Positions 36,685-40,335 of a DNA stretch of 51,327 nucleotides are shown here, piece after piece. The number at the start of each line of letters is the position of its first letter. Within the stretch, counting starts at the first letter, position 1. This stretch comes from a virus. Made by a program: the position numbers and the translations under genes. The notes under the pieces were generated by a model. It was not told the DNA's origin, did not search any database, and saw only the letters and a program-made list of their open reading frames with translations. The stretch covers positions 1 through 51,327 of IMG/VR virus record IMGVR_UViG_3300013372_002875; one strand, 5' to 3'.

Positions 36685-37305
36685 TTAGAAATCCATATTT
36701 GGATTGTAGTCCATACTACCAGTATAAGTTCCACTATTGTAAACTAGTCTAATAGCAAGTCCCATATCCATATTAGCTGATATATTTGTAACTTGTTTAT
36801 TACCCCAATATAATCTAACAGAAGTTGCTTCTAATGAACCACTATCAGCTGTCCAAAAATTTCCACTCCAACCGTGATCCCAAAAATCACCGTTTTCTTT
36901 TATGAACCCACTTGGGTTTCCAGTAAATTTTGATTGATTATCACCATTACCATTTTGTCTTTTTAATGTATTCCAATTTTTAGTATTTTTTAGTTTATGA
37001 CCAGCAAGACTATTACCCCCAAAAGCAGCAGATAATGTATTGAAGTCAGACAAATATGGAACTCTAAACCCAACTGGTGCTATATTTTTTGAAGAAGATA
37101 TTACATAATAATTGTAAAGTTTTCCATATTCTTCTTCAAGTGATGGATCAAAATTGTAATAACACCATGCAGGTGTGTTTGTTGAAGCAAGTTCCACCCA
37201 TTGTTCTGAACTTGAACATTCAGTTATTGGTGTGCCGTCTTGGAATGATTCAACTGCTAAATTCTCTTTTGACCAATACTGGGAACCGATTTGAACGACT
37301 GCCAT
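36685..37305 (-). CDS. FISUMP-domain protein (Fibrobacter succinogenes major paralogous domain)
   Basis: 206 aa. The pattern is typical: VQIGSQYWSKENLAVESFQDG, WCYYNFDP, YGKLYNYYVIS, PVGFRVPYLSDFNTL, then FWTADSG and AIRLVYN. The domain is frequent in surface proteins of Bacteroidota and Fibrobacterota; C-type-lectin-like fold is assumed for it. No signal peptide is present, so it should be a virion part (tail fibre tip or decoration) that mimics or binds host surface material. A TATATTTATAG element lies 42 nt before its ATG. Confidence 0.8.
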   Translation of the reverse strand: MAVVQIGSQYWSKENLAVESFQDGTPITECSSSEQWVELASTNTPAWCYYNFDPSLEEEYGKLYNYYVISSSKNIAPVGFRVPYLSDFNTLSAAFGGNSLAGHKLKNTKNWNTLKRQNGNGDNQSKFTGNPSGFIKENGDFWDHGWSGNFWTADSGSLEATSVRLYWGNKQVTNISANMDMGLAIRLVYNSGTYTGSMDYNPNMDF

Positions 37306-38870: not shown

Positions 38871-39341
38871 TTATTTTTTACCTTTATTTATCTTTACCAA
38901 TTTTATATTGATACCATTTTTATCTTCTGTAATTATTACTGAATGGTCACCTGTATAAAGTATCATAGTAAGCCATTTCAAAAATTTATTTATATCAGTA
39001 TCTATTGGATCATTAAAGTTTTTTTCTTTATCTTTTTTACTACCAAAAAAATCTTCTGGATTATTCATCATTTCATTTTCAAATGTTCCATCATCTATTT
39101 CTGGTAATTCTTTTGGTGGCATCATAAAGTCTTTATCTTCTTCTTCGCCATCTATTTCTTCTTGTCTCTTTTCTTTTATTTTCTTCATTATATCTTGCAA
39201 CATATAAAAATCAAGAATTTGATTAAAGGTGTCTAAAAATCTTTGTAATTCTTTTTTAGACATCTTTTCATCTTTCTTTCCACCCATGTTTACTTCATAG
39301 TAATTTAACATGGATTTCAATTTATGTTCTTGTTTTGTCAT
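38871..39341 (-). CDS. Acidic hypothetical protein downstream region of thyX operon
   Basis: 156 aa, first helical and charged (ELQRFLDTFNQILDFYMLQD), then a disordered acidic stretch (GEEEDKDFMMPPKELPEIDD) and a short C-terminal beta segment (DHSVIITEDKNGINIKLV). No family recognised. It precedes thyX in transcription by 3 nt and overlaps the gene before it by 20 nt, so all three are coupled. Confidence 0.62.
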   Translation of the reverse strand: MTKQEHKLKSMLNYYEVNMGGKKDEKMSKKELQRFLDTFNQILDFYMLQDIMKKIKEKRQEEIDGEEEDKDFMMPPKELPEIDDGTFENEMMNNPEDFFGSKKDKEKNFNDPIDTDINKFLKWLTMILYTGDHSVIITEDKNGINIKLVKINKGKK

Positions 39342-39573
39342 TACTATTCCTTTTTATTATGTCTATGACTTCTACATATTCATAGTTTCCGTTCTTTATT
39401 TGTTCTATGGAATAATTTTTCAATTCTTTACAAATTTTTTGATTATTACCATATTGTGTTGCCATTTCAATTATTGTATCTTTTATTTGAACTTTACTTG
39501 GCTTCATAATATCAAGTCTAAGCACAAGCCACATTGATACAAACCCTAATAAAAATGATGATATTATTTCCAC
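39322..39573 (-). CDS. Small membrane-anchored hypothetical protein
   Basis: 83 aa. One N-terminal transmembrane helix (IISSFLLGFVSMWLVLRLD) and a soluble helical tail. No family recognised. The start at 39573 is preceded by GGAGAG. A TATTTATC element lies 31 nt upstream. It begins the three-gene run ending with thyX. Confidence 0.62.
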   Translation of the reverse strand: MEIISSFLLGFVSMWLVLRLDIMKPSKVQIKDTIIEMATQYGNNQKICKELKNYSIEQIKNGNYEYVEVIDIIKRNSNDKTRT

Positions 39574-39603: not shown

Positions 39604-39611
39604 GATAAATA
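39604..39611 (-). promoter_or_regulatory. Candidate late-type promoter element TATTTATC
   Basis: Minus-strand CTATTTATC, 31 nt before the ATG at 39573; it matches the core of the TATATTTATAG motif less well than other copies. Confidence 0.28.
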
Positions 39612-39619
39612 GAATGTTT

Positions 39620-39659
39620 ACGAGAGAAAAATGGTCGGTATGTAAAAAAATTCTCTCGT
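39620..39659 (-). other. 3' hairpin after the transglycosylase gene, with loop complementary to the 5' leader
   Basis: Perfect 9-bp stem ACGAGAGAA (plus 39620-39628) and TTCTCTCGT (39651-39659) with a 22-nt loop. In the minus-strand RNA the loop contains AUACCGACC, complementary to all nine loop bases of the hairpin at 40245-40267. The hairpin starts 16 nt after the stop codon. The T-run is in the loop, so it is not an ordinary terminator. Confidence 0.6.
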
Positions 39660-39675
39660 TAGGATATAATTGTTA

Positions 39676-40179
39676 TTATACCTTGTAACCCCTTTCTTTC
39701 AGGTCTTTATAGACCATTTTTGAAACTTTATTCCAATAGTGCCGAGTAGCACCTTTTTTGTGTCCATTGGGACCGCCATTCCACTTTCGTGCAATGATTT
39801 CCATATCACTCATTGTGATGGTTTCCCAGTTAATGTTGGGATTGTAGAAATTCTGAAAAATCCAAAACATTTGTTCAGACTTTTCAGGATTTAGCCTATC
39901 TTGTAAATTAAAAGATTTGTTAATGCCTTTCATTTTACAGATTCGGTTCACTTCCTTCACCATTACCGGTAAAATTTGTACTATACCAAGTGAACCATCC
40001 TTTGATCGTGCGGTTGCATTGCCTTTTGACTCAACCCAAACGATAGATGAATATAACACTTTCTTCATTGTTGCTGATTTAGTTTCAGCACCTTTATTAA
40101 CAGTAGTTGTAAATGCTACCATAGGGAAATAAAAGCCAATCAAGAACAATGCTATAACCCGTTTACATTTGTTAGTCAT
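39676..40179 (-). CDS. Secreted lytic transglycosylase (SLT-like), candidate endolysin
   Basis: 167 aa from the ATG at 40179 (GAGGACAGG upstream; a longer reading from 40215 is less likely). The signal peptide is KRVIALFLIGFYFPMVAFT. The mature part has the SLT core: SSIVWVESKGN with catalytic Glu50, SKDGSLGIVQILPVMV, and the later RKWNGGPNG. It would cut the peptidoglycan glycan strand after Sec export, either for lysis or wall remodelling. Its transcript is bounded by the two complementary hairpins and has a host-type promoter with an inverted-repeat operator. Confidence 0.83.
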   Translation of the reverse strand: MTNKCKRVIALFLIGFYFPMVAFTTTVNKGAETKSATMKKVLYSSIVWVESKGNATARSKDGSLGIVQILPVMVKEVNRICKMKGINKSFNLQDRLNPEKSEQMFWIFQNFYNPNINWETITMSDMEIIARKWNGGPNGHKKGATRHYWNKVSKMVYKDLKERGYKV

Positions 40180-40244
40180 AATCCTGTCCTCATTTATGGA
40201 TAATATATTTAACACACCATAATGTTGATTTCAACAAAATGGTT

Positions 40245-40267
40245 AAAACATATACCGACCATGTTTT
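40245..40267 (-). other. 5' leader hairpin of the transglycosylase transcript
   Basis: Perfect 7-bp stem (plus AAAACAT 40245-40251 and ATGTTTT 40261-40267) with a 9-nt loop. In the minus-strand RNA the loop is GGUCGGUAU. It lies between the predicted start of transcription and the ATG at 40179. Complementary to the loop of the 3' hairpin. Confidence 0.6.
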
Positions 40268-40278
40268 CAAAGAACGAA

Positions 40279-40297
40279 CTTTGATTATCTATCAAAG
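40279..40297. promoter_or_regulatory. Inverted repeat operator at the transglycosylase start of transcription
   Basis: CTTTGAT-TATCT-ATCAAAG, a perfect 7-bp inverted repeat overlapping the -7 box. A third half-site TCAAAG lies at 40267-40272, giving three alternating copies of the CTTTGA/TCAAAG hexamer. Likely a repressor or sigma-related binding site. Confidence 0.5.
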
Positions 40298-40325
40298 ATA
40301 GTGAAAATATAAATATAAAGCAAGC
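40293..40325 (-). promoter_or_regulatory. Host-type promoter for the transglycosylase gene
   Basis: Minus strand GCTTG (40325-40321), 20-nt spacer, TATCTTTG (40300-40293). The 15 bases around the upstream box (AAAAATTGCTTGCTT) are the same as in the divergent plus-strand promoter at 41680. Confidence 0.5.
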
Positions 40326-40335
40326 AATTTTTAAT

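Follow-up and report, generated by a model that had tools for sequence, protein, structure and literature searches.

Pairing between the 3' and 5' ends of a single mRNA has been described for the hok, aapA and icaR transcripts (PMC6733600, PMC3868564; review PMC5502269). The full-length mRNA of the aapA/IsoA system of Helicobacter pylori contains a 5'-3' interaction that is removed by trimming of the 3' end and is conserved between relatives (PMC6733600), and in icaR of Staphylococcus aureus a UCCCCUG motif of the 3'-UTR pairs with the Shine-Dalgarno sequence and makes a substrate for RNase III (PMC3868564). For phage T4, the portion of PMC3014915 that deals with post-transcriptional control describes RegB, RNase LS/Dmd and RegA, none of which is a 5'-3' UTR pairing. 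The open-access literature yielded no phage example of 5'-3' mRNA end pairing, in line with an earlier note on this DNA that knew of none. Here we analyzed a 51,327-nucleotide stretch of viral DNA (the window), in which the leader and trailer of a transglycosylase mRNA carry complementary elements, termed L and T. We read the L:T pairing as a conserved 5'-3' long-distance interaction that works like those of the hok, aapA and icaR mRNAs without being homologous to them.

The gene between the two elements is the following.
39676-40179, minus strand: coding sequence of an SLT transglycosylase with an N-terminal hydrophobic segment, from Pfam, PHROG and PDB matches.

The Pfam SLT match (E=3.7e-7) is above the curated cut-off, and the matches to a PHROG endolysin (6.8e-6) and to lysozyme chains in the PDB (E=1.6e-4) are weak. 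The product of ~167 aa starts at the ATG at 40179 (-) and ends at the stop codon at 39676-39678; the listed open reading frame starts at 40215, a GTG upstream of this true start. The hosts of the phage family are probably Bacteroidota. Directly downstream of the transglycosylase in relatives, the gene at 39322-39573 (-) encodes a small protein that is conserved and has a hydrophobic segment at its N terminus; no family match was found for it, and it is a candidate holin or spanin partner. A Fib_succ_major domain protein is encoded at 36685-37305 (-) (Pfam E=1.4e-30), and the same phage has contractile-tail baseplate genes.

The leader and trailer of this gene contain six elements, some of them best seen in the two clades of relatives described below.
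40252-40262, minus strand: leader half L, AUGGUCGGUAU (RNA sense), with a core that is the same in all 23 aligned relatives (alignment A4, columns 91-100).
39631-39641, minus strand: trailer half T, AUACCGACCAU (RNA sense), which pairs with L in 23 of 23, in one of them with a G-U.
40245-40267, minus strand: leader hairpin AAAACAU[GGUCGGUAU]AUGUUUU, 7 bp, possible, not the predicted minimum-energy fold.
39620-39659, minus strand: trailer hairpin ACGAGAGAA...UUCUCUCGU, 9 bp, seen in the sequence, with T in its loop, starting 16 nt past the stop codon.
40215-40244, minus strand: second leader hairpin AACCAU..GUUG..CAAC..AUGGUG, from stem covariation and folding.
40183-40203, minus strand: UUAUCCAUAAAUGAGGACAGG, containing the conserved strand S (UUAUCCA) that adjoins the Shine-Dalgarno sequence, from alignment and folding; in clade A, S and T are competitors for L.

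Exact copies of ATGGTCGGTAT occur in the 51,327-base record only at 39631-39641 (+) and 40252-40262 (-), the places that the earlier note had given for its complementary sequences, and L is located ~85 nt upstream of the start codon and ~70 nt upstream of the Shine-Dalgarno sequence. The 9-bp trailer hairpin that the note described 16 nt after the stop codon is present as well. Its 7-bp leader hairpin can form, yet the predicted minimum-energy fold of the leader pairs the L motif with AUAUAUUAUCCAU just upstream of the Shine-Dalgarno sequence instead. The note had also called the chance of an 11-mer match small, which proved too strong for the window alone: comparing a 200-nt leader with a 150-nt trailer in dinucleotide shuffles (n=2000), a match of at least 11 nt appeared in 43 of 2000 (~2%; this window alone). 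Judged from the window alone, the match is thus evidence of moderate strength, and the case for L:T is strong because the pair is conserved across relatives, not because of the single-window odds. In the second leader hairpin, which has a predicted mean probability of 0.87 in clade A, GUUG/CAAC becomes GAG/CUC in two loci (L011 and L013).

Two neighboring sequences are recorded in passing. The strand immediately before the Shine-Dalgarno sequence (40197-40203, -) is TTATCCATA or TTATCCAAT in clade A and TTATCCACA in clade B; the latter is an exact DnaA-box consensus, probably by coincidence. Just upstream of L, GTTCTTTGA (40267-40276, -) can pair with the Shine-Dalgarno sequence GAGGAC, is found in clade A only, and resembles a Bacteroidota boxA antitermination element.

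Relatives were gathered by protein searches of viral contigs, and 23 loci in two clades were aligned (alignment A4). Clade A holds close relatives with transglycosylases 75-93% identical, and for clade B the figure is ~54-64% (~55-60% between clades); one related locus lies in a Flavobacteriaceae MAG labelled Baikal-deep. Both elements are at the same places in every clade A or clade B locus that has both flanks present, and most clade B members match UUGGUCGGUAUA to UAUACCGACCAA. What surrounds the elements is not the same in the two clades. Clade B has a different 5' region (promoter surroundings) from clade A, its leader hairpin is UUAUAC[UUGGUCG]GUAUAA against ACAU[GGUCGGUAU]AUGU in clade A, and its trailer stem, itself covarying, is GGGGnnGAAGAA/UUCUUCnnCCCC against ACGAGAGA/UCUCUCGU. 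Most clade B members have a terminator-like trailer hairpin with T inside and a U-rich tract after it, and in several members of clade A the trailer contains an additional inner hairpin of ~30 nt that leaves T undisturbed.

The best-conserved 9-column windows of the alignment are GGUCGGUAU in the leader and AUACCGACC in the trailer, and these are exactly complementary. Across the 10-bp L:T helix, 230 of 230 cells (100%) are standard pairs, the single change being U-A to U-G in locus L003. In the tested structure 99% of cells are paired, a share that falls to 18-46% once the 3' partners are slid by 1-3 columns. When all mRNA columns were scanned against one another for helices in which 90% or more of the cells pair, L:T was the longest conserved helix, at 10 bp, followed by one of 7 bp. 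Nine of the ten core pairs are invariant; since the core varies so little, the support from covariation is confined to the edges. At one flank, clade A has A-U, replaced by U-A in five of the seven clade B members; at the other, clade B, L063 and L134 have A-U, L009 and L014 have G-C, and the remaining loci have no pair. Of the compensatory changes that the earlier note proposed to look for in relatives, pair-preserving flank changes (A-U/U-A and A-U/G-C) are seen across the two clades. The invariance of the core, for its part, implies some constraint beyond pairing, to which L and T are likely subject. We consider it highly probable that the L:T pairing is real and selected.

The likely extent of the transcript is indicated by two motif regions.
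40293-40331, minus strand: promoter-like region in the sequence, TTG...TATCTTTG (Bacteroidota type) plus TATTTAT.
39605-39612, minus strand: CTATTTAT, a conserved motif past T that resembles a promoter and would belong to the next gene, from alignment and motif search.

TTG...TATCTTTG and TATTTAT are upstream of L in clade A, and in most of clade B TATTTAT stands just before the L hairpin. At the other end, CTATTTAT or a near variant follows ~10-35 nt past the trailer hairpin, ahead of the next gene, in most members, and in L063 and most of clade B a U-rich tract comes after the trailer stem. The positions of the promoter-like motifs, together with the terminator-like, U-rich trailer of these loci, suggest a transcript with its 5' end a little before L and its 3' end a little past T. 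TATTTAT occurs repeatedly before minus-strand genes where the intergenic gap is short (49681, 40315, 39611, 37355, 34376, 31455 and 12309, -) and is possibly a phage promoter element.

With transcript ends placed near the elements, full-mRNA partition functions gave L:T a probability of 0.84-1.00 in clade A. Extending the 5' end reduces the value for the window to 0.28, as strand S (AUAUAUUAUCCAU) then becomes a further partner for L. Most clade B trailers place T within a strong terminator-like hairpin, and nested folding does not allow this hairpin and L:T in one structure. The net pairing energy, estimated roughly by adding opening energies to duplex energies, is predicted to be negative in 23 of 23 loci, at -5.7 to -10.5 kcal/mol in clade A and -1.8 to -8.6 kcal/mol in clade B; for the majority of clade B, where T is partly covered by the trailer hairpin, the estimate is small (-1.8 to -4.1 kcal/mol). 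The window mRNA is 4.5 SD more stable than its shuffles in predicted folding. Of the end-to-end kissing interaction proposed in the earlier note, the pairing of the ends is well supported by the 23 of 23 loci, the flank covariation, the longest conserved helix and the clade A folding; the kissing form is less secure, as folding often gives a plain closing helix. When L is blocked, the predicted accessibility of the Shine-Dalgarno sequence rises for most clade A members, falls for three and is almost unchanged in clade B. Because L is clear of the Shine-Dalgarno sequence and the access changes are inconsistent, no consistent translational effect is predicted, and the idea that L:T blocks translation via the Shine-Dalgarno sequence was dropped for want of consistent support from these shifts.

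Two stretches of the coding sequence are constrained at synonymous sites in the between-clade comparison.
40156-40179, minus strand: codons 1-8 (ATGACTAACAAATGKAAACGGGTT).
40009-40053, minus strand: codons 43-57 (TATTCATCTATCGTTTGGGTTGAGTC...), complementary to codons 1-5 with bulges.

The wobble bases of codons 1-8 and 43-57 are identical across clades, and most other codons are at background. Codons 1-5 can form a bulged pairing with codons 46-51, in which L085 has one A-U to G-C double change. This constraint and this capacity to pair are signs that translation initiation may be under the control of mRNA folding. The helix between codons 1-5 and 46-51 is itself not claimed, its mean folding probability being only 0.28 in clade A and 0.03 in clade B.

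The reading that we prefer, and hold to be rather probable, is that the transglycosylase mRNA is closed by the selected L:T helix, and that this closed form is a regulated one, which restricts or times translation and shields both ends. L (UGGUCGGUAU) in the leader would pair with T (AUACCGACCA) in the 3' hairpin, closing the mRNA, and the closed full-length form would limit or time the translation of a potentially lytic enzyme, its two ends being shielded by the closure. In clade A, L may switch partners between T and the S strand beside the Shine-Dalgarno sequence, and the closed form could be opened by 3'-end processing, ribosomes or refolding. In our judgement, repression is a more likely direction of the effect than protection or activation. 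A more specific version, a lysis timing switch, is conceivable and we advance it only tentatively: the end-locked mRNA would be inert, with its start buried by pairing of codons 1-5 with 46-51, and would be set free late, when its 3' end is processed or S takes the place of T on L. As far as the searchable literature goes, such an mRNA would be the first 5'-3' locked one in a tailed phage.

It is also conceivable, though unlikely, that the pairing is real and serves mainly mRNA stability, the 5' end and the 3' hairpin being protected from nucleases without a direct effect on translation. The distance of L from the Shine-Dalgarno sequence, a start-site access effect that differs between clades and the location of T within a 3' hairpin would all suit such a role; constraint on the leader adjoining the Shine-Dalgarno sequence, on the first eight codons and on codons 43-57 suggests, against it, control of initiation.

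Whole-contig searches bear on a reading in which L and T are opposite-orientation sites of one sequence-specific protein, binding DNA or RNA, with complementarity as a by-product. Each of 11 pair-bearing contigs searched whole (up to 177 kb) has one inverted pair, at this gene, with two exceptions: the trailer half of L003 has the G-U change and a 137-kb contig has one extra stray copy. The leader or trailer pattern alone was found at 136 loci or more, and among the matches listed the inverted pair occurs in nine, all of this gene family; at other genes, the matches listed from the viral-contig pattern scans contained no L/T pair, only single hits. With no further genuine copies in the contigs, there is no regulon for such a protein, and that idea was rejected, as the contigs held only the pair plus the stray copy. 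A 10-nt core with almost no variation, alongside other stems of this RNA that covary freely, is what a protein site would predict, as are promoter-like motifs near both copies, but the flank positions vary while preserving pairs, and relative to their promoters the copies sit on opposite sides, within covarying RNA hairpins. We therefore regard protein sites as improbable.

Complementarity alone does not separate action in cis from action in trans, and T might act as part of a trailer-derived small RNA or a second transcript that binds the leaders of other copies of the mRNA. Terminator-like hairpins are a common source of 3'-derived small RNAs, and the clade B trailer is a compact hairpin of this type. 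Since T lies between the stop codon of this gene and the promoter-like motif of the next, where a separate promoter was not seen, and the cis helix is favored by folding in clade A, there is little likelihood of a trans role.

The two elements also come and go as a unit. L and T are present together or absent together across the relatives examined; the earlier note had named a gene kept with its loop match lost as counter-evidence, and in the sense intended this was not encountered, the relatives having both halves or neither. Both are absent from L083 (a 123,972-base contig), a close relative that groups weakly with L085 in the protein tree; a short plain leader and an ordinary terminator replace the whole leader and trailer there, possibly a natural loss of the system. 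Both are likewise absent from the Microcystis phage Mel-JY01, whose gene order is syntenic, and from the remaining distant homologues that were tested. A mobile element was considered and rejected, given that the downstream neighbors are the same in relatives and that Mel-JY01 is syntenic without the elements. A nucleotide search of annotated phages gave no match. Rfam searches of the window and four relatives returned only tRNAs; the transglycosylase region has no match above the gathering score, and one further hit is at chance level (E=0.55).

A DNA-level role, as short inverted repeats for segment inversion or as cruciform sites, would fit repeats that flank the gene downstream of its promoter-like region; it is very improbable, as the orientation of the gene relative to its downstream neighbor is identical in all aligned contigs, and the G-U pair of L003 and the covarying stems indicate RNA. 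A chance match in AT-rich phage DNA, for which the 2% of shuffles with an 11-nt match (one 200 x 150-nt comparison) could be cited, is scarcely credible, being refuted by the alignment tests, the same-place conservation in both clades and 32 more distant homologous loci, among which none has a conserved pair.

The preferred reading, a closed and regulated mRNA, would, if true, add a post-transcriptional lock to the means by which phages restrain wall-degrading enzymes. The contact covers 10 bp, the mRNA is ~0.7-0.75 kb long and the flanking pairs vary naturally, which makes the idea directly testable.

The leader/trailer complementarity that marks 5'-3' UTR interactions in general is kept across the relatives (23 sequences). 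As in hok/Sok, the 3' end of the mRNA pairs with its own 5' leader, coding elements near the start are structurally constrained and the product is potentially harmful to the cell; unlike hok/Sok, there is no relation in sequence or gene, and L lies ~85 nt from the start codon. The product also sets the locus apart from both hok/Sok and aapA/IsoA, being a ~167-aa SLT transglycosylase rather than a short hydrophobic toxin peptide, and an antisense antitoxin RNA was not seen among Rfam matches in the region. Like that of aapA, the long-distance interaction is conserved between relatives, but the 3' element of aapA is an anti-Shine-Dalgarno sequence, whereas T pairs upstream of the Shine-Dalgarno sequence. 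With icaR the locus shares pairing of the 3'-UTR and 5'-UTR within one protein-coding mRNA; the icaR arrangement, a 3' motif on the Shine-Dalgarno sequence, is not found here, as T pairs with L, and the helix is upstream of the Shine-Dalgarno sequence, longer (10-12 nt) and has its 3' half in a hairpin. Like T4, which has several layers of control at the mRNA level in the portion of PMC3014915 that covers them, this is a contractile-tail phage. If the preferred reading holds, fold-back control of the hok kind would extend beyond toxin-antitoxin mRNAs.
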